From Thuidium tamariscinum (Eukaryota > Streptophyta > Bryopsida > Hypnales > Thuidiaceae): DNA of 64,000 nt. This document shows positions 29,258-62,094 of the stretch, piece by piece. A program made the translations under genes and the position numbers. Location: assembly GCA_947034885.2 (NCBI GenBank), contig OX344758.2:5520501-5584500 (forward strand), given 5' to 3'. A model generated the notes under the pieces. The model searched no databases. It saw only the letters and a list, made by a program, of their open reading frames with translations, and was not told the DNA's origin. Within the stretch, counting starts at the first letter, position 1, and every line of letters begins with the position of its first letter.

Positions 29258-29503
29258 TGAATCATGCGTTTAAATTCCAACACTTTATTCATGAATTCCT
29301 TGAACTTACATCTGCCTAGTTCTCTTGCTCATCTCTCCTTTTATCTGAGGTGCCTCACCGTTATGGTGGTTATTACCTAATTGGTAGTTACTTTGCACAA
29401 TGGATGAATTGACTACGATCCAACTTGTCCAGACATAACTTCTACCTATGGGATAGACTCATTTTGAGTGACCACCAGGCTTAATCAAGAAAACCTGGTA
29501 TCA
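29258..29503 (-). repeat. 3' LTR of the Ty3/gypsy element
   Basis: 246 bp, the same length as the partner at 35131-35376 and about 93.5 % identical to it by eye. On the minus strand it runs from TGATACC to the TTCA end. Confidence 0.9.
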
Positions 29504-32500
29504 TCTCCTCCCCAGGGCCTGAAGCTTCGGGAGCGAGTTCCATTCTATGATAATATTGTTTAAGTTTAATCCCATTGTACAGTTTCTTTAAAATTGTTCC
29601 CTCGGGTGTACTCAAACTGTAAGTTCCATTGTCAAAACGGCAGTAAATTACATACGGTCCTAGCCACTTAGGTTTGAACTTTTGCCCATGTTGTTTAATT
29701 AGCCAATGATCTACCATTATGACTAATTCGCCTAGATCGAACGTGATAATCTTCCCTTGGGCATCGTGTCGTAATTTTCTTTTCCGTTGCAGAGCCTCAT
29801 AGTTTTGTAACGCCCAACACTGATCCTCGTCTAGTTTTTCTAACAGGTGAACCCGTATAGCTAACGAATCCACATCACCCAATTCATGTTGCATTGCAAT
29901 ATGTAAGGACTTGAGCTCTAATTCAATAGGGATGGTTGCTTCAATGCCAAAAGCCAAGTGAAATGGGGTATACTCGGTGGTAGTCTTGTAAGCCGTCCAA
30001 TAAGTCCAAAGAGCCTCGTGAACATGCTAATCCCACTTGCGACGCTTTTCTAAAATGACCTTGCTGATGATGCCAATCAAAATTCCATTGGTCTTTTCCA
30101 CCAATCCATTTGCCTGCGGGTAGTACGGGCTAGCCCTTCTATATTTTACTAACAGTTTTTTCATAATGCCTCCAACAACTTCATTAATGAAATGAGTTCC
30201 TTGATCAGTGACAATTTCCAACGGGCATCCGTAGTGACACACAATCTGATTAAAGATAAATTCTGCAACCACCTTCTTATTGCAACTCCGCACTAGTAAA
30301 GCTTCAACCCATTTGGCCAAGTAGTCCGTGGCTACTATAAGATATTTGTTCCTTTTTGCAGTCACGAGAAGAAGCTCGATGAAGTCCATGTCCTACTTTT
30401 CAAAAATTCCAATAGGATAAATCAAGTGCAACTCGGTGAATGGTTTTATTCGCTTCCCATATGCTTGGCATTGTTTACACGTTTTGCAAAATTGCGCACT
30501 ATCCGCAAACATCATCAGCCAGTAAAACCCCACTCGAAGAATCTTTCTCAAGGTCACATCCGCGGCGAAATGGCCACCACACACTCCTTCGTGGTAGTGG
30601 TAAACTATTTCTTGGGTTTCACAAGGTCCCACAGCTCGTTGCAAAATTCCATCCTTACTAGCGCGATACAATTCACCGTCAATTAATGTGTAAGGTTGAC
30701 TCTTTCAACAAATTTCCTTGCATTGCCATGCCGTCCCTTCTGTTGGTAGGGTCAGGTCCTTCAAATAATTTATGATATTTGTGTAACCAAAGTCTCGATG
30801 TTGTGACTTGGTGGATAAGGCAAAACATTCCAATTCGTCCAATAATTCTCCTTCGACTTCGTTCAGGGGTTGATCAAGATCTAGCAGTAAGGACACATGT
30901 CCTGCTCGGGTTCCTTTGACTGTCTTTATGATTAAATCATACGGCTGAAGAAAGGCCATGAGGCGGGCTACTCTTCCCTCAGGATTAGCTTGTTGAATCA
31001 ATAATTTAAGTCCCTCAATTTCGCATTGGACCAATGTCGGAAAGGAATTGGCTAATAAATAATGCTTGAACTTCGAGTAGGCAAACAAGAGAGACACCCC
31101 CAAATTCTCTAAAGGAGAATATTTCACCTCACAAGCCGATAGGAGTCTACTAGCATAATATATAGGATGTACCCGACTTGCTTCGTCATTTTGTATCAAG
31201 ATTGCTGCAACCGCAAATTCAGACGCAAAACGATTTAATATGAATTGAAGTTTCCAATCCGGGTTTCGGACCACTGGACTACTTGCCAGGTATGATTTCA
31301 CGTATTCACAATCTTGAACACATTTCTTACTCTAGTCAAAGGGCTTGGTTTATGCTATTAAGGAACTTATAGGTCGACCAATGCCTGCAAGGTTTGGAAT
31401 AAAACGATTATAATAAATTGTTGTACCCCATAGCTTTGATACCTGTTCCTGTGAAGTAGGAGCCTTCATCTCTAATATTTGTTGCACCTTTTCTAGATCA
31501 ACCTTCAGTCCTCCCTTGAACACCACGTGTCCTAACAGTGGCCCTTCCTCAAACCCAAATTTGCACTTCGAGGGGCTTAAGGAGCAACCATGCTCCCGCA
31601 ATCGCTAAAAAGCGGCACGTACTTGCTCTACATGTACCACTTTATCACCGTATATTGCGAAATCATCTAAATAAACTTTGATAAACCGACCAATATAGGG
31701 TGTAAAAATCTTAAGTTGCACCCGTTGGAAGGTCCCACCTGCATTGCACAGCCCAAAAGGCATGTGCAACCATGCAAACATGCCCCATGGCGTGGTAAAC
31801 ATCGTAAACAAGATGCTATCTGGGTGAATCCGAATTTGATGATACTTGAGTATCCATCACAAAAAGAGTAATGTTCATGCCCTGCTACCTCGTCTAATAA
31901 CTCATCAATGTGAGGTAATGGCTATCGATCTTTCCTCGTAAATTGGTTTAACGCTTTGTAGTTTACATAGACTCTCCATTTTCCTCCTTTTTTTTGGGAC
32001 AATAACAACAGGAGACACCCACTCCGTGTTCCGCACTTTGGTAATGAATCCTCCCTCCAAGAGACGATCTAACTCAACTTGTAAAATCATCATCTTTTCT
32101 GGAGCCATCCTCCGTTGCTTAGCTCTGACAAGTTTAGTCCCTGGCAGTAACTCAATTCGATGCTCCTCCAAGGTAATAGCTGGTAGATCCACATGTTTTG
32201 TAACAAAAAGGTCTGATACTCAATGACTAATTGCTCTAATTCCTCGCGCTCAATAGGAGTTAGGGTGGGTCCGAATTGAAGCAATGACAACATTTCACTT
32301 TTCGCGCAAGGGCCCACATCTTGATCTTCCAGATGATTCATTGAATCGGTAATGACTTGCAGTAATACATGGATGGCGTAGAGTTCCACCTCCATGTCTT
32401 CAGACTCCGCATCAAAATCTGATGCAGGATCAAAATCCCATGAAGATTCGCCAGAGGAGTCTTTCATCGCCGAATTACTGGACGAGTCACTCCCAAGCTT

Positions 32501-35130
32501 TGGCACCACTTGAATGCTCACGCGATTTAGAGAAGAACCTATTTTCATCTTTCCCTTTTCCCAGTAGTTAACAAGTTTTACTTATCATAACCAGGGCCGC
32601 CTCAAAATCATAAGATAACCGCCATTATTCACTGATATATTTAATACATGGAAATCAACTTTTACTATAATACCATTTACAGTAACAGGGATTCGACTGA
32701 TCTGGCCGAGGGACTTTATGCATCTTTGATCGGCTACTTTCAACCACATCGACAACGACTTGGTTGGTTTCAATCCTGCCTCCTCTATGAACTAGCTTGA
32801 CATGATGTTTACGGCTGCTCCGCCGTCGATTATACATCCTTCAACTGTATGACCGTGTATCGTGGCTTCGATCTACAGTGCCTTGAGATCTCCATGAGCT
32901 TTATCTGCAATATGAATCTCCGCCGATGATCGTCGTTGTCGTGCACTTATCCCTTGTCATAACTCTCTCCTCAAAGCGGGAGATTTCGTAATTAATTGCC
33001 CCATGGTTATGTTTGCAGTTTGGTTACCGAAGGCGTCTAATATGGAATACTCAATCTGGCCGCAGCCCACTAACAAATCGTCAATCCCAATGCGTCGACG
33101 TGGTTTACGAACCTTCTTATCCGAACAAGCATGTTTATCTCGGTGAAGCTCAATTGGGGATGTCAATGTTGGAATTGCCTCTCTCGTCGGTCTACCGTAC
33201 TTTGCCATCATCACCTTAGGGTTCTCCCACAAAGTGCCTGCAATTTGCACCAAATGTAGCTCCGCTAATTTAGTAGTACTTGGCGTTGCGGTCTTTTCTT
33301 GGTTCGAACAATTGTTTTTATAATGCCCTTTTAATCCACATCCATGACAAGTAACAAACTAGACAACACGTGACGAGGGCCCTGTAAAGTCTGACTGCGG
33401 ACTCTTGGCACGGCTGCTCATTTGTCCTTGCAGCAAGAATAGCTTCAGGTCACGCATCTCAACCACTAGCTGCAATAACTCAAAATCCGTTCCGCCTTGC
33501 ATGCACTTACTTTTCGTTGGACCAAAGGTAACTTCACCTACTTTTGGCACAAAAGTTGTTCTTATTACTACCAACGACAGGCTCTGCACCATATTTGTTA
33601 TGGTTAATTTTTTACGTTGTGCTAAAGCAAGTGCTACTTCGAACATTGCCGGATCCTTCCAAGCCACGATCTCTTGGATTACTAGCTTCAAATTGCCAAT
33701 GAAACTTCACAGTACCAATGCGTCGATACTACTTAAGTTGGCTACGGTATTCTCGACGTTTGTCGCACCACGATCTCCATTCGTGGAAACCGGACAGCTC
33801 ACACTTCTCTAGATACGAGTCTGCAACTCCCTCACTCTTTCACTAAATTGTCGCACCGTTTCCTCAGATTTTTGTTTAATCAAGCTCAACGTACCCAACA
33901 AACTTTGATAGCTTTCTCGTTCTTGAAACTTGGATACTAAGGCTTCAGTCAAGGCTTGCCAAATAGCCTGCGTTCCGATCACTTGCATGTCATACCAAAA
34001 CATTGATGTATCATCTAGATGGATCGGCAGCAATTCCAACCAAACAACCTCTATCCGATCCCCATTTGCCATGCATGCTTGTTTGTATTGCTTTATAAAC
34101 CGTTTAGGGTCTTTTTTTTCCTTTCCTGAAAAAACTAGTATAGCTACCATGGTGCTTGATCACTAACACTTTCCCCAAAATGATTCTCTATGATAGCTTC
34201 TTGGCTGCAGCGTCGGCTTCGTGATTTTGTTCCCTAGGTACGTGAATAATTTCCATGAATTTGAATTCTTGGGTTACCCCCTTCACGGTCTCATAATAAG
34301 GTTGTAAATTCTCCGACTTTACCTCCTAATTTCCAGCCACCTGATTACAAACCAGCTTCGAATCACCTTTGATCTGGACATGGTACCCGTTCTTCCCTTT
34401 AGCAATGTTCAAAGTGGCTATCAAAGCTGCATATTCAAATTGATTGCAAGTTAACCCTTGGCCGAGATCATAATGGAAGGTTTCTTTCTCCCCTATAGGA
34501 TTCTCCAAAACCACCCTAGCACCCGAACCTAACCGCTTCGAGCAAGACCCATCAAAATTGAGTTTCCAAGGCTTCATTCTTTCCGCAAGGCCATTGAGAT
34601 TTCAACATGAAGTCTGGTGACTTCGAATTGTCAATGAGTGACCAAGAAATTGCTATTCTTCACCCCGGCACTATAAACGGAATCAACACCCTCCTAGTGG
34701 GTCTGCTAGTCAATGGGGCCTCATAGTCCATGTATCAACTCCTCGCAACTCGGTCACTGGAATCTCATCCTCGATTGTCTGAATATTGTTTACCATGATC
34801 AAGTCCCGGTGTTATACTGCACTAACTCATTGTCTCCTCCCGGTTACACGCTCCTCGAAGAAAGAGCTTACTGAAATATGCATCCAGGGCGTTTTGAATT
34901 CCATAATTGTTTGTTTTTAACTTCAAAATTTGCACCAACATCGTTCTATGTGATCCCTGAAATAACGTTGACATTGATGGTAGATTTCTGAACTGTTGGG
35001 TTATCTCCAATCTCGCTCGTAAATGAGCAAGGCACATCTTCCAAATCCTCTCTGATTCTGTGTTTTGGTCTATCACTTTCCCGGCTCTCACCCTATAACA
35101 AATTCTTGTGTCCCGGCAAGGGAACCAAGA

Positions 35131-35743: not shown

Positions 35744-35859
35744 CACTACAAAAAAATGAAAGTATCACTACTAAAAAATGGTGTCCAAATCAACAAAAAC
35801 TTAACACTTTTTTGTTAATTTGTGTACTGCAATGTCCATATGCACATTTAGTTGTGAAC

Positions 35860-36509
35860 TCTGTGAATGTTCGCAACATATTTTTATGGGCCCGTTGTAG
35901 ACGCTTACGCTCCATTCACTTCACTGGAGCTGCGGCACCATGGGGAACGGGGAACTTTTTGAACCATCATCTCGCGCGAGTCGTCAAGCGCACCTTGAGA
36001 AGGCGTTTGCACTTCGTTTGAAGCTTTACTGTCGGTAGGGTTTAGGTTTTCGTGAAAAAAGAGGTGTTCGTGATTTGTATTTTGGATGGGACATAATGAT
36101 ATGGTCGTGTCCGTTCGCTGTAATGGCGTGTTTCGAACAGCCAAAATTGTGAATTTCAAGTGCACAGAGCTCTGAAAACTTGGACTGGCGCAGATGTGAG
36201 GTTAAAACAGGCGTTTACCAGTGACCAATTTCTGGAATTTTGGTCAATTTTGGTCATATATTTTTTTCTGTTTTAGTGAATGTGACAAGTGGTGGTTCAA
36301 ATGATCACTTGGAAGCTCTAGAATTGTGCTCTTGTTCTTGGTAGTGGTTGGAAGCTCCTAGGTTGATGGTTTTTGAACACGGGTTGGAGTGCTTAGAGGG
36401 AAGGTGAGCGCATTCAAGTTTCTATTAAATGTATGGTAGGGATATTGATTTTGCTTTGGATTTTGGAATGGCTGGTCTTATATGGATCTGGTGTGTTTTT
36501 GAATTGCAG
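35860..36509 (+). other. Probable captured upstream part of the allantoinase gene
   Basis: The stretch between the transposon's left subterminal motifs and the first recognisable allantoinase exon is GC-richer than the spacer (especially 35890-36160). It ends in a good acceptor (ttgcag at 36504-36509). It is likely the captured promoter or 5' part of the gene. An ATG at 35939 opens a frame, MGNGELFEPSSRASS, which closes soon and cannot be matched to anything, so I do not call it a first exon. Confidence 0.35.
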
Positions 36510-39500
36510 ATCGACAAAGGATGCAGTCTGTTGTCTGACACCCACTTCGTGCTCTACAGCAACCGTGTTGTAACTCCTGACGGCACTGGGCCTTATGCAG
36601 GTTCGTTACGCTAAACAAACAATTTGTATTAGTTTTTACAAGTAGTGGCATTGATATACCGCAAGTGAAAGTACCACACTCTCTTGAGGATGATCGTAAT
36701 TAGTTGTTTTTTCTGATGTTTATCCTGACCTAGTATTGCGAAATGCAGACGTGTTCTTTGCGTCAGTAGAAGTTAACAAACATTCAGATCCTTGATTTTG
36801 AGAATGTACGATTTTCTCCAATTTTGTTGCAGTGGAGGTGAAGGGCGAGAGGTGAAGGGCGAAAGGATTGTTTCTGTGACGAAGAGAAGTGAGGCGCCCA
36901 AGAGCACAGACGGAGGGCCTCGGGTATTGGATTATGGAAATGCCGTCATCATGCCCGGACTTATTGATGCGTATGATTTTTAACCATGTTGCATTCTAGT
37001 TGCAAGGCAGTGGAAGGGATTCTTTCTGCCTTCTTGCTTCGATTTAGTAATCAATCGACCCATTTGAATTTTTAAATAAACTTGAGTATTTGAGGAAAGT
37101 ACGGAGTAGTATATACATACAAAGATAAAGCACAAAATGCGGCAGAAATTAAAAAATAGATTTAAGCATGTAAGGGTTAGTTGTCTACTCGTAGTAGGCG
37201 TGTAAATCCATGTTTGGAAATTGAATAGATTTGTGCCAGTGAAATTCATAAGCACAATAATGAATCCTAGTATTTTGTTGCAGTCATGTGCATATCAATG
37301 AGCCGGGGCGAATGCAATGGGAGGGTTTTCTCACCGGCACGAAGGCCGCTGCAGCTGGTACGTTACACGCAAATACACTGATTTATCCAATTAGTGAGGG
37401 CAAAATCATAGTTACATGCAAATGTAGTGTCATTAAATTTTCTTTTTTTGGTGGAAAATAGTACAATCTAGTAATATTTCAGCTTCCACCAACTTAAGTA
37501 TACCACAAGTAGTGTCTCAGTAAATTAGTATCACACGCGCTCTAATAGGATAAATGAGTGTGCGCTTCTTTCACTGTCAACACTTCGTTTAGGCTTACCT
37601 CCGTTGAATGTCCTTTGGCCATTCATTCTCAAGTGGAAATTAGGTTGTCTCTTGTCCTTCAATAGTAATCTACAACCTCCCACTTTGAATGATTGTATGA
37701 GAATTCATGCGTAGTGATTGATAATAATGCGATCTCACGAGAGTTTAATTCTCCACTGCTCTTCAGAGATCTTCATAAAATCACTCTCCTACATATGTTT
37801 AATAAAATGGTATCCTTTATCTGAAAGGTATGTACTAATTCGATAAGGATGTGCTCTACAGGTGGTACGACTACTATTGTGGACATGCCATTGAATGTTC
37901 ACCCCACGACAACAACAAATACGATTCTGAAGGAAAAGGTAGACAGACCTCTTGTCGTAATTGCTGCATTTTCTGTGTGGAGAATTCATCATCTTGCACA
38001 TCTCTGCTGCAATTTTGAGAGATTGTTATGCTCTTGTGCGGCGATTTCTGAGTAAGTTTTGTGTTGTGTGCATGAACGTGGATAAAGATAGAATCCACCA
38101 AAGATATGCTTTATATCGATGTTGGTAAGTTTCCTGCCCATTTCAAGTAGTCTCTAGTGAACAAAGTTTTTTTTGAGTTAGCAAACTAGAGTCCTCTTTG
38201 AACGAGATTGTTCTAGTTTGATTATATTCCAGTATGTTTTTTGTTTTTTATGTCTTTTTTCTGTTTTGATTTTGATTGGGAAGTATGCAAAGCAAGTTCT
38301 CTTTGGTATCTAATTTGTGATCGTTGAATTTTTCAGGTTTTGGGGGAGGCTTAGTCCCAGACAACGCTTACAATGCATCGATCTTAGAGGGTCTCCTTGA
38401 AGCTGGCGCTCTTGGTTTGAAGGTTTGGAATATATCTTTTCTCCTTGTTATATTATCTGGGTATATTTTTGAAAGGATGACGAAGCAATTTTTGTGTTCC
38501 AGAAAATTCTTCACAAGTTTTTCATCTCAGAAAACGATTACAACATGGTTATTTGTGAGTATCTTGGTTTATGTCAAGTTCATATCTAACCAGATGTGAG
38601 TTACGATAAATTAAATTGCAGAGAGACTGACGCTCTCGGCTACGTTGTTGAAGTTGTTCATGTGTCTATCAGGAATCAACGACTTCCCAGCCACCACTGC
38701 AAATCATATAAAGGTGAGCGAGCAACTTGTGCAATAAATTTGCTTGTGCATCTTGAATTTTTCATAATTTTGTGCATACTTGTGTCTTTTTATTGAATCC
38801 TTTCATGAATTTTTGACCTCATGTTTTCATTTGCACATCGAAGCATGGTGTCTATGTTTGGATTGGTGGAGACTTTCAGGAAGAACGCGATTTGCTTGGT
38901 GCAATTTAGAACATTTTTCATGTCGGATGAGAGTTGAATGCACTCTTAATCGTATTGAATCTCTTTAGATCTGAAAAAATTGAATGTAATTGAATTGATG
39001 CTTTTATTTTCTATGAGCCCAACTAAAGTAAAACAAACTGCTATTGCAATTTTTCAAAAGACACAAGCTAATGACCTTTGATTTTCTCTTAATGATCTAT
39101 ATTTTGATTCTGATATAACAATTTTACTACTTTTGTAGGCTTCATTGCCAGTGCTAGCAAAGTTCAAACGCCCCATTCTGGTGCACCAGGAAGTGACGGA
39201 CCCACCTGTTGACCCCTCGCACTTAGCCCCAGGGGAGCTAGCAGGCAATGCTCGCATTTACGAGAGATACTTGGAAGCTAAGCCTATTACATGGTACTCA
39301 TTCTTAGCCCTTAATTTGATCCTTCAACTGCCCAGTACTCAAGCTACCTTCTAGCTCATATTAGACTGTTGGTTACGTAGATTATAATGGTTGTTTATAT
39401 TAAAATGTCGAGTAACTTCATTCCATTTTTGACAAAATTTCGTGTTTTTTGGTGCAGGGAGCGAGAAGTAGTGAGACAGTTGATGGAGGTGGCCAAAGAC

Positions 39501-39584
39501 ACAAAACCAGGAGGTATTGCAAAGGGGAGCTCATGTGCATGTTGTCCACCTCTCAAATGCAGAAGATTCCTCTCTCGTATCAAG
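36510..39584 (+). pseudogene. ALN: Captured 5' half of an allantoinase gene
   Basis: Allantoinase opens the allantoin ring in ureide (purine) breakdown. Exon pieces: 36510-36600, 36833-36970, 37284-37357, 37862-37938, about 38079-38126, 38337-38422, about 38654-38713, 39139-39293 and 39458-39584, most with GT...AG borders. They read [119 protein letters not shown] and VVHLSNAEDSS. This order is collinear with plant allantoinase. The HVH metal ligands and the VHLS histidine are present. Everything after that (the later metal ligands and the SSDHSP-type segment, roughly the last 40 %) is absent. A one-base shift before VHVVHLS and a poor border at 38654 show decay. It cannot make allantoinase. 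Confidence 0.85.
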
Positions 39585-40015
39585 GTATGTATTTTCTATC
39601 GCCGATCTTTCACATGTCTTATGGTTTTAGATGCATTTTACTCTTGCGACTTTCATTGCGAAACAAGTGCCACCATCGTTTGTTACATTTGGAATCAAGT
39701 TACGCTTTGCTTTTCCCTTCAAAAATCATTGATCACACTTATTTTGGTTCTGGGTTTTGGGTTTTTGTAATGTTGCGTGATGGGTTGTTGTTTGAAGGAT
39801 TTGTGGTTTTTTCCCTCCCATAAAACAAAATTAATAGAACTCGGACGTTCACTGATTTTTTGTTTGTTAATTACGATTTTTTTCTTTGTCTCACGTGAAT
39901 TACGGTGCAGATTGTGTATTGGTGGATGATTAGGGTTTGGGGTTTTCAGTTGTAGTTGTGCAATTTCGTTTTGGTATGGAGGAATATTAATATGTCTTGG
40001 CGTTTTTGTGCACAG
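39585..40015 (+). other. Junction intron between allantoinase and PRP31 pieces
   Basis: This is non-coding sequence from the donor CAAG|GTATGT to the acceptor TTTTTGTGCACAG. The capture junction must lie within it, but no sequence mark pinpoints it. It would be spliced as a single hybrid intron if the element is transcribed on the plus strand. Confidence 0.55.
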
Positions 40016-41732
40016 GCGACATTAACTGTGGACTCCTTGGCAGATTTAGAGGACTTGTCTGACGATGAAAATCACAATGAGGTATGCTTTTCGCTTCTTC
40101 CTCTCATGCCTTGTTACCTTTTTTTATTGTAAATTTTTCTATGTTGAATCTGTATAAAAGAGTTTTGTCTTTTTTTGTGGATATTGTAAATCGATAATTG
40201 TGAACATCGATATCGACAACAAGCGCTGAATTGACAAATTGTTTCTCGACTGTGCCTTTGCTTTGTCATACGTTTTTGAGTTTTGGATATTTCAGTAATT
40301 GAACAAAGGTTTTTGCGTTGTGTCCAGATTAGGTTCTTTTAGCATTTTTTGTTTCTATTTTGCCTAAGAGTGACCATTTGATCTATCTTTAATACCTAAC
40401 TGCCCAAGGTGAATACACAAATTATTTTGAAAGTCAATACTCTTTGTAACTTTCAAAACATATTTTGGGGCGTCAATCTATCGATTTTTAATGTAGGCAT
40501 GAATTCTTCTTTCTACAAGTGCACTTTGTATCCTAAATGATCTATTTCAACTCCTATCTAAATGGAAGAAGTCGAAGCCGATGTAGGCAATTTTCACAAG
40601 TATTTTCTAAACTAAAGACTTACTCCGTATTGTTTTCTGCTTATAGTAGTTCACTGGCATGCTCCTTCGTTTTTTCCGTTTTGTTATCTGTCTTAATAAA
40701 GTATGCTAACGATATGATTAAATGTGTCGGGTGCGACAGGTGGTCTTACTGCGCTTTCCAAAATGCCAGCTTGCAATGTACAGATCTTGGGTGCCAAGAG
40801 GAAGAACTTGGCTGGATTCTCAACTTCCACACAACTTCCACACACGGGTTTTGTATTTCAGACAGAAATTGTGTAAAGTACTCCTCCACTGTGAATGAAG
40901 GCTTGCTGTCAAGTTGTAGGGAAGTGTACACTAGTTGTTCGAGTTGATTTTACAAGAGGTGATCTTTTTGTGAAAATTGGTGAAGACTTCTGGGAAGAGA
41001 TTCGAAAGAACATTGAAAAGTAGCCAGAACCTCTGCCTCCTAAACAACCAAAACTGCTTCCGGTCCCAGAAAATGATCCGAAGAAGAAAAGAGGTGGCCG
41101 TCGACTCAAGGAGATGAAGGAGAGGTTTGTCGTTCTCTCTCTAAAATCATCATGGGTGTCGCTCAGTTGGTTCTAAGGATAACATTCTACAATTTATCTT
41201 CTGTTGTTTGTAAGCATATACTTGAATCTCTTGTGTTACCTTGGTAATGTGATTGTAAGCAGTATTTTCATTGCATACATGAAGCTAAGGTTCAATTCTT
41301 GTTGTCTTCTCAGGTATGCCCTAACTAACATGCGCAAACTTACAAATCAGATGAAATTTGGTACAGCTAAGGAGAGTTCACTTGATAATTTTCTCTACTT
41401 GTTTTTTCCTTACAATTTTACTGATAATATCTGGTAAGATATGTTTGTGATGCTCCTTGGTGACTGATGACTAAGATGTGGTCGTATTGTGCGCAGGGGA
41501 TGGTTTGGGACAAGGCTATGGTATGCTTGGGCAGGCGGGTAGTGGTAAATTGCAAGTCTCGATTGGTCAGAGTGACACCAATCTCTAGAATGTGTTTAAG
41601 GCTGCTCTAGAGGTTACGGGCCAAAATGTTTTCCAGCACAAGACTACTTTGAAGGCTCCTGACGGGATAGATGTTAAGGGGATAGTGGATAATTTGCTTG
41701 TGGATTTATTGACAACACTCAATGTTTTGTAG
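40016..41732 (+). pseudogene. PRP31: Captured pieces of the splicing-factor gene PRP31
   Basis: PRP31 is a U4/U6 snRNP protein needed for tri-snRNP assembly. The first piece, 40016-40081, reads ATLTVDSLADLEDLSDDE and corresponds to the very N-terminus (the usual initiator Met is not present in this piece). The next recognisable piece, 40740-41124, begins [20 protein letters not shown], the end of the Nop domain, and runs through EIRKNIEK and KKKRGGRRLKEMKER. 41314-41384 reads YALTNMRKLTNQMKFGTAKE and 41497-41732 reads GDGLGQGYGMLGQAGS and onward. The middle of the protein is missing. At least four in-frame stops occur, in EIV, PPL-MKA, IEK-PEP and TNL, and the donor after 41384 reads AT instead of GT. 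Several stops fit simple C-to-T or G-to-A change. Non-functional fragment. Confidence 0.85.
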
Positions 41733-42565
41733 CTAGCCTTCTTTAGATATTATATGATATGACACCATATTCCCATGATATGACAAACATATATAATTTG
41801 CTACACTATATTCAAATTTGTGAGTTGCAAGAAGTTGTTATGTGAATGGGCATCCAAATCAACATTTTTATGTCAATCATCAACACAAACGTGTCAAATT
41901 GGACAAAAAAATGAACACTTTTATGTTCACAGAGAACAAAAAAGTGTCAATTTGATCGTCCAAATCAACACTTTTTTGTTCATCTTTGTCCAAATCAACA
42001 CGTCCTAATTAACAAAAAAAATCAACACTTTCTTGTAATTTTGGACGCTGAATTTTCTACTAGTGTATATGGTAGAAGTACCCATTACTAATTGGAACCC
42101 CATCAACAATCAATAGGGTATCCTATTTCCAACCAAGATTAGAACAAATTTTCATTTTTTCCTTAAAATGCATGTCTTTGTACTTTTTCAAGGTTTGGAC
42201 CAATAAATTAATGACAAGTAAGAAAAAAAGTAGTAAGGAATGAGTGAAAAAGTAGTTCTTGAATGATCAAAATTAGATGACTTAGATGTTGGTCACAGGT
42301 CAAGCTCAACTTTTTCCTTTTAAAATTCATAGTAATTTCAATTTGAGAGATAAAATTATTAAATTTTTTGCATTTGCCATCATTTTTGTCAATGTACCTT
42401 TGAAAACAATTGCTTTGCCTTCCACCACCCTAGATCATGTCTAGATGTTCTTATTTTATTGGTTATGGGTACCTCTACAATCAATGACTTGTTGACAATG
42501 ATTGCAAAGCAATCATTTTAGAGTCATTGTAGACAAATCATTGTAGATACTTGTTTTTTGTAGTA

Positions 42566-60416: not shown

Positions 60417-62094
60417 GGAGAGTTTTTAGATGGGATGGAAGCAACTATGAAGAAATTGACAATGTTATCAAATGAAGTACTATCTGAGTTTTTGAATGAA
60501 GTCATTGTCATTTCTAACTTAAAATAATACAACTTAGTGAAACTTACAAGTTGTTGTCTTGGAAATGGAGATCAATGCATCTTGGTGTTTGAATACGTGG
60601 AAAACAACAATCTTGTGCAAGCTTTGTGGATGTGTGGTATAACCCTTTGAATTCCTATAGCTCTATATCTGATTCAAAATTTACACACATATTTCCATAA
60701 TAAGATTTTGTTGCAAGTGATTCGCAAACCAACATTGAACTTTCATGTTTGGATTGGAAAACAAGGTTCAACATCATTGTAGGTATTGCAAAAGGGCTTA
60801 CATACCTTCATGATGAATTGCAACCACCAATCATTCATTTAGACATCAAAGTAACCAACATCCTTTTGGACAAGAACTACAATGCAAAAATTGAAGATTT
60901 TAAATTGGTGTATCTATTTCCAACTCTTGATAATAAAGTGTCACTCTTGACTTTGATGCAAGTTGTAGGAAGAAGATGAACAAACTTACTTCTTGGAGAT
61001 ATATTGAAATATTGAAATTGTTGAAATATATAAAGATACTTTTCTAAATCATAAATCTTTATATACTATTGGTTGTTGTAAACACATAAATTAATTTATT
61101 GTGTAATGTTTATTTTTTGCTACATGGCATATGTGTATGTGTGTGTATATATATAATTCATTGTAGATGTTATAGATTTGTAAAATACTTTGATTCTAAT
61201 TGACAAATTTTTCTATATGCTTTTGTATGAAGAAGATATTGCTCCCTTGAATATGCCCTCCATGCTCATGTGTCAACAACCCTTGATGTATATAGTTTTG
61301 GAATTCTTGTATTTGAGATTGTGAGTGAAAGAAAAAACATCAATCTTCAAAAACCAAGTGAAGAAATTTATTCGTGAGAATGGGTGAGAAGTCTTGATGA
61401 AAATTTATATTCAATGATCGATAGTAAGAATTCCATTGCATTGATGGACTACAGTTATAATTTTGAAATTTCATATTCAACATTTTAATTTAGATTTGTG
61501 CTTATCTATGTCAATAAGTTGTTATGTGTTTCTTCAATTGGACATTGATCATGCATATAATCTAATATGTATGCCAATTTAACATTCATTTTAGGGATTT
61601 TTTTTCCTAGCAAAATTTTGCCAGATTGTTAGAATTCTAACCTTCATTTGTCTTCCTTTTAAAATCTAGCATATATAGTGAGGCTAGAGGGTTGGATAAT
61701 AGTACAAAAGAAAGTCTTGATTGATTTAGTTAATAGTAAATATACCATGGCTAATTCATAAATTTTTTCTATTTATCTTAAAAGACTGGAAACAATATGA
61801 AAAAAGAAGCATTAATAATGATGTTTATTGATAAAAAGATGGAGCACTCTCCAACGGACTTGGATGTCATCTAGCATATTCTAGCTATGGCACTTGCAAG
61901 TGTATACGACGTCCTAGAATGCATGATGTTGTACCTAAGTTCTTAGGAAATATATCAATTAACCAATTTCAAACAAGCTTTGAAGATGAAGAGGAGATTA
62001 TTGAAATGAATGGATAATTTTCTATTATGGTGGGCACAACATCATCCTTTTGGAGCAATGAGAGACTATAGTTTAGATTTTGTCTATTTCCCCA

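Follow-up and report, generated by a model that had tools for sequence, protein, structure and literature searches.

The 6,300 bp at positions 35766-42065 of the window (the whole 64-kb stretch of DNA analysed, C10:5520501-5584500) form one complete CACTA element. We read it, with a probability of about 0.92, as a non-autonomous Pack-type element carrying host-gene DNA that was captured in steps; the element would have been mobilised by a TNP2-bearing relative, its cargo would have been acquired at the DNA level, and this cargo may now be silenced and non-working. Searches of the host genome covered 363.2 Mb in 19 contigs. The initial annotation had proposed the same kind of Pack-CACTA gene capture, a proposal now borne out by unlinked donors, by ends shared across a family and by a transposase-bearing relative. 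The element itself contains no transposase, and its cargo has identifiable donors on C5 and C7 and a relative on C11. Its features, in window coordinates, are as follows.

35763..35765 (no strand): left target-site duplication TAT, read directly; 3-bp flanks are identical in 12 of 13 family copies
35766..35961 (+): left (5') end, starting with CACTACTAAAAAATGG and holding one subterminal TCCAAATCAACA at 35784-35795
35962..36054 (+): element interior of unassigned origin, with matches to C3 and C7
36055..39670 (+): captured allantoinase, an intron-bearing segment that spans the upstream region and roughly half of the coding exons, counted from the first; the donor is C5:6071787-6068177(-)
36835..36862 (+): two tandem copies of the 14-bp GAGGTGAAGGGCGA within an allantoinase exon, a frame-shifting duplication not in the donor
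39668..39670 (no strand): allantoinase/PRP31 junction, TGC in both donors (three shared bases)
39668..41572 (+): captured PRP31 piece; donor C7:20229603-20232546(+), with an internal deletion of ~1 kb
40729..40732 (no strand): junction of the PRP31 internal deletion, donor 20230719 joined to 20231700, with GGGT on both sides
41572..41725 (+): third captured piece, an SCC2/Nipped-B-like exon (cohesin loader); C11:16245166-16245004(-) holds a related open frame
41685..42065 (+): right (3') end with three subterminal TCCAAATCAACA and TAGTG last; 93.7% identical to a TNP2-bearing 20.9-kb element
42066..42068 (no strand): right target-site duplication TAT, from direct reading and comparison of family flanks

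The element combines CACTA/TAGTG terminal inverted repeats, a 3-bp target-site duplication and subterminal repeats. Read letter by letter, CACTA begins at 35766 and TAGTG, within the terminal bases TCTACTAGTG, finishes at 42065; these ends, the TAT on each side and the subterminal repeats are as the initial annotation had described them. The motif TCCAAATCAACA starts at 35784, 41853, 41959 and 41989, and nowhere else in the 64-kb window when up to one mismatch is allowed. By itself this count is weak evidence and only mildly unusual (1.2 matches are expected, and four were reached in 5 of 100 shuffles). The motif evidence is nevertheless strong, because the repeats are placed at both ends and the same layout of one CCAAATCAACA on the left and three on the right recurs in 11 of 12 family copies, the remaining copy, C7b, having none on the left and one on the right. 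Within the short unassigned interval next to the left end, 35964-36038 is 97% identical to C3:30500070-30500144, and 35964-36001 is 95% identical to C7:5921010-5921047, which lies inside copy C7b.

The capture reading had been made dependent on the ends being shared with other copies, and they are: the right end occurs at no fewer than 39 other genomic places (best 40 of 348 candidates scored) and the left end at no fewer than 37 (best 40 of 303). Among 13 copies whose two ends were both read, all but one have identical 3-bp flanks, the single mismatch (aca/acg) being at C1:27350038-27356693; one of the matching copies, at C9:7898364, has an altered first base (AACTA). With even base usage a 3-bp flank would match by chance once in 64 per copy, and the family boundaries are therefore secure. 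Two copies in opposite orientation, C3:30195664-30200555 (+) and C3:30201086-30206030 (-), lie about 0.5 kb apart.

A transposase-bearing CACTA relative with the same ends, for which a search had been suggested, is present at C8:15609662-15630570. This 20.9-kb copy has gtc/gtc flanks, shares with the window element aligned stretches of 129 columns on the left and 382 columns on the right, and contains a 605-codon open stretch identified as Transposase_21/TNP2 (PF02992, E 2.7e-58) and a 205-codon stretch identified as DUF4218 (PF13960, E 4.4e-33); two more of its open stretches gave no Pfam family. Among the 12 complete copies, TNP2 and DUF4218 sequences are present in this one only. It is a candidate for the transposase source of the family. 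Both stretches were compared by tblastn with the whole window and gave no match at E<=1, which agrees with the earlier claim that the element has no transposase; a transposase remnant within it was rejected on this basis.

Donor alignment and Pfam both confirm that the interior holds intron-bearing allantoinase and PRP31 sequence in one orientation. The allantoinase piece, in which Pfam recognises ALN_composite and Amidohydro_1, is 96.3% identical to its C5 donor segment over 3,630 columns; it had been identified correctly and placed at 36510, and its true start is 36055. A genome search in which every first-look candidate was scored found close allantoinase sequence elsewhere only in the C5 gene, at C5:6.066-6.072 Mb; the genome also has another allantoinase gene, a diverged one, at C10:11.892-11.899 Mb (within C10:11892001-11901000). 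As judged by tblastn with an allantoinase protein as query, the C5 gene runs on through more exons to the query end at about C5:6066129, whereas the element stops about half way, and the donor gene appears to be complete. The PRP31 piece contains the Pfam families Nop and Prp31_C and matches Prp31 chains in PDB (E 1.4e-32). Its donor at C7:20.229-20.233 Mb extends beyond the captured part and, judged by eye, also appears complete. The initial annotation had assigned 36510-41732 to allantoinase and PRP31; the PRP31 content stands, and the right limit moves back to 41572. The two genes lie on different chromosomes, and the possibility that they are neighbours in this host genome, which had been named as fatal to the capture reading, was rejected.

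The rest of that span, 41572-41725, belongs to a third piece, and the reading of the interior as pieces of two unrelated genes was rejected in its count, its allantoinase and PRP31 components being retained. This piece is 78.5% identical in DNA to C11:16245166-16245004 over 163 columns, and we take it to be SCC2-like. The 184-codon open frame on C11 matches Nipped-B-like protein chains (E 4.6e-21) and has no family in Pfam; the 47-residue right-end peptide alone has no Pfam family, and its best PDB hit has E 0.31. The SCC2-like peptide occurs at 30 genomic places, or 28 once the window and the C11 gene are set aside, and the TNP2 element has 74 bp of SCC2-like sequence in its 3' region. Because the DNA match extends over only 163 columns at 78.5%, the C11 gene may be a relative of the SCC2-like donor rather than the donor itself.

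As far as the sequences of the copies record it, capture is shown to have been stepwise, in at least three steps, with the SCC2-like exon first, PRP31 next and allantoinase last. This order follows from the agreement of three lines of evidence: distribution among copies, divergence from the donor and shared breakpoints. PRP31 sequence was found in 20 of 36 other family copies (donor excluded, best 40 of 53 candidates scored, the count being made from 48 listed rows). In the window copy, identity to the related C11 sequence is 78.5% for the SCC2-like piece, and K2P divergence from the donor is 0.092 for PRP31 and 0.029 for allantoinase. The outermost PRP31 edges, 20229482 and 20232668, are common to C7b and C9a, which also group together in the PRP31 tree (96/89), most other forks of which are weak. 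The edge at 20232546 is common to the window, C2b, C1b, C11a and C8a, with C9c at 20232541, and the internal deletion is common to the window and C2b, where the equivalent junction lies within 4 bp (20230719/20231696).

A gene scan of the interiors of the other copies, excepting C3a and C4b, shows further host cargo. The interior of C2b (C2:33809363-33816634) has counterparts at three or more unlinked host loci: it has a CID-domain piece (E 8.4e-24) that matches C3:15.279-15.281 Mb at 94%, and a 570-bp piece that matches C4:2.698 Mb, a locus with long open frames, at 97.7%. The latter piece is antisense to these frames, so captured pieces need not all be sense. A WD40 stretch in the same copy fell below the Pfam cut-off and was not counted as a named gene. 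The flanks of C2b are telomere-like, with ttagggttta on each side. Copy C7b (C7:5914393-5921356) has a WW-domain stretch (E 1.4e-8) and an interior that corresponds to C2:17.948-17.950 Mb at 95-98%. It also contains an insert of ~230 bp that is not in the C2:17.948-Mb source and occurs at 39 or more other places (best 40 of 1653 scored), probably a miniature transposon added after capture. C1b has CIA30, ribosomal S17 and hexapeptide-repeat stretches by Pfam, and its interior matches C2:16.963 Mb (96%), C10:6.985 Mb (97%) and other loci too; C1a has an EDRF1-like stretch (E 9.6e-10). We tentatively suggest that the family might be a layered collector of gene pieces, in which each round would place a new host segment between the existing left and right parts and leave a readable record of capture order, with the SCC2-like exon fixed in the 3' region, the transposase-bearing member included.

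The cargo has decayed in a characteristic way. The allantoinase piece differs from the C5 gene at 103 of 3,597 sites; at 70 of these the donor has C/G where the element has T/A, and at nine the opposite holds. The rate of change per cytosine in this piece is 0.095 in CG, 0.105 in CHG and 0.024 in CHH contexts. Across 12 cargo/donor comparisons, which are non-independent in that several copies have common ancestry, changes from donor C/G to copy T/A exceed the reverse in every case, and CG and CHG exceed CHH in every case. This skew indicates transfer from gene to element. It would also inflate any age, and for this reason no age was estimated. The decay is likely to stem from methylated cytosines being deaminated in a silenced transposon, and the base changes suggest that the cargo is methylated, silenced DNA. 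When the C10 paralogue is used to polarise the exon changes, only ten fall on the element side and five on the donor side, with five ambiguous. As judged from its reading frame, the captured allantoinase is disabled by the frame-shifting 14-bp duplication and by two 1-bp exon indels, which relative to the C5 gene are of opposite sign. The splice-site bases visible in the C5 alignment are retained, so that exonisation is possible provided the element sits in a transcript. The proposal that the element is a good candidate for exon shuffling finds no support beyond the retention of these visible splice-site bases, given a disabled allantoinase and methylation-type decay; exon shuffling is possible but unsupported.

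The sequence of events that best accommodates these observations would begin with TNP2 from the relative mobilising the element in a cut-and-paste step that produced the 3-bp duplication. The captures would each have taken place at the DNA level through faulty repair or joining around transposition, giving junctions with few shared bases. After capture, the cargo would have become cytosine-methylated and then decayed, and the window copy would consequently yield no working allantoinase or PRP31.

How the last segment was acquired may be explained in two ways, and both are compatible with the junction overlaps, which measure three bases between allantoinase and PRP31 and four at the internal deletion of PRP31. 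Somewhat short of an even chance, in our estimation, is that one family element inserted on each side of the allantoinase segment and that the two, after losing their inner ends, moved as one hybrid, the left part coming from one element and PRP31 with the right end from another; movement of neighbouring insertions as a hybrid is described in the available text of PMC8903248 and PMC13317346, both citing Catoni 2019. As this model predicts, the C2b piece nearest its source, the one from C4, lies between the older CID and PRP31 parts, and the oppositely oriented pair at C3:30.196-30.206 Mb is the kind of local arrangement from which such capture would start. Among the copies compared, the left end of the window element is nearest to C2b (92.7%) and the right end to C1b (98.1%), but the left- and right-end trees, neither of which has a starred fork, are too weak to tell one parent from two and do not support this, and the 16 kb read around the C5 donor gave no match to an element remnant. 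Alternatively, the copying that restores the lost interior after excision could have switched template to the allantoinase gene and been closed by microhomology joining, an interrupted gap repair to which we assign a plausible minority share; abortive gap repair as a capture route is cited in the portion of PMC8978399 at hand. The shared junction bases, the apparently unbroken donor genes and the recurrent internal deletions among copies are consistent with this route, but overlaps of 3-4 bases are common in ordinary end joining too, and nothing here distinguishes it from hybrid movement of neighbouring insertions.

Two further explanations were considered. A functional chimeric gene, in which the allantoinase promoter and exons are spliced to PRP31 exons in a useful transcript, would draw on the retained splice-site bases and on the precedent of soybean Tgm-Express1, which according to the accessible text of PMC1947982 is spliced in such a manner. 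It is very improbable in view of the exon duplication and indels, the methylation-type decay, and an exon K2P of 0.0290 that equals the non-exon value of 0.0294 (with exon edges set by us). For the idea that the allantoinase piece is a retrocopy or an unrelated nested insertion we found no supporting point and consider the odds negligible: introns are retained, on which ground the retrocopy was rejected, upstream DNA is retained as well, and no repeat pair lies at the edges of the piece among the repeats listed, which comprised 20 of the 30 direct families and 25 of the 34 inverted pairs.

Stepwise DNA-level capture by a Pack-type CACTA element is thus the preferred reading, and gene-capturing CACTA elements are a known phenomenon to which the window element adds a well-preserved example. 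The available portions of reports on Tpn1 (PMC5105172), Tgm-Express1 (PMC1947982), Pack-CACTA (PMC8903248) and Chenopodium (PMC8978399) establish that CACTA elements carry pieces of host genes. Like Tpn1 of Japanese morning glory, the element has kept En/Spm-type ends and subterminal repeats around an interior of captured host genic DNA, and as in the Tpn1 family many copies are non-autonomous and few have transposase; this likeness is one of description, and, as far as the account in PMC5105172 extends, the captures here differ in being layered and orderable. The 5.7-kb Tgm-Express1 likewise combines fragments of several unrelated host genes, five in all, in one CACTA element; within the compass of that account (PMC1947982) it is inserted in the second intron of a flower-colour gene, whereas no host gene was recognised in the partly annotated surroundings of the window element. 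Pack-CACTA and other Pack-TYPE elements of Arabidopsis, rice and maize, as outlined in PMC8903248, are similarly non-autonomous, with matching ends and duplications, without transposase and with coding DNA drawn from one or more loci. The present case, set against that outline, comes from another genome, has three orderable capture layers, and shares its oldest piece with a transposase-bearing relative.

The value of the family lies in captures that can be ordered in three agreeing ways and in the availability of both donor and captured copy, which would allow both proposed capture mechanisms to be tested on real junctions. The captured gene DNA shows methylation-type decay instead of the birth of a new gene.

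In the surroundings, a fragmented pol region resembling that of an LTR retrotransposon lies to the left of the element at 29484-34159 (-), with an RT_RNaseH domain at 30708-31301; among the 10 window open reading frames scanned in Pfam, out of 16 of at least 130 codons, no other family was found. The left flank, which was the flank searched, is partly repeated elsewhere in the genome. An open stretch at 60704-60976 (+) resembles, by eye, part of a receptor-like protein kinase.
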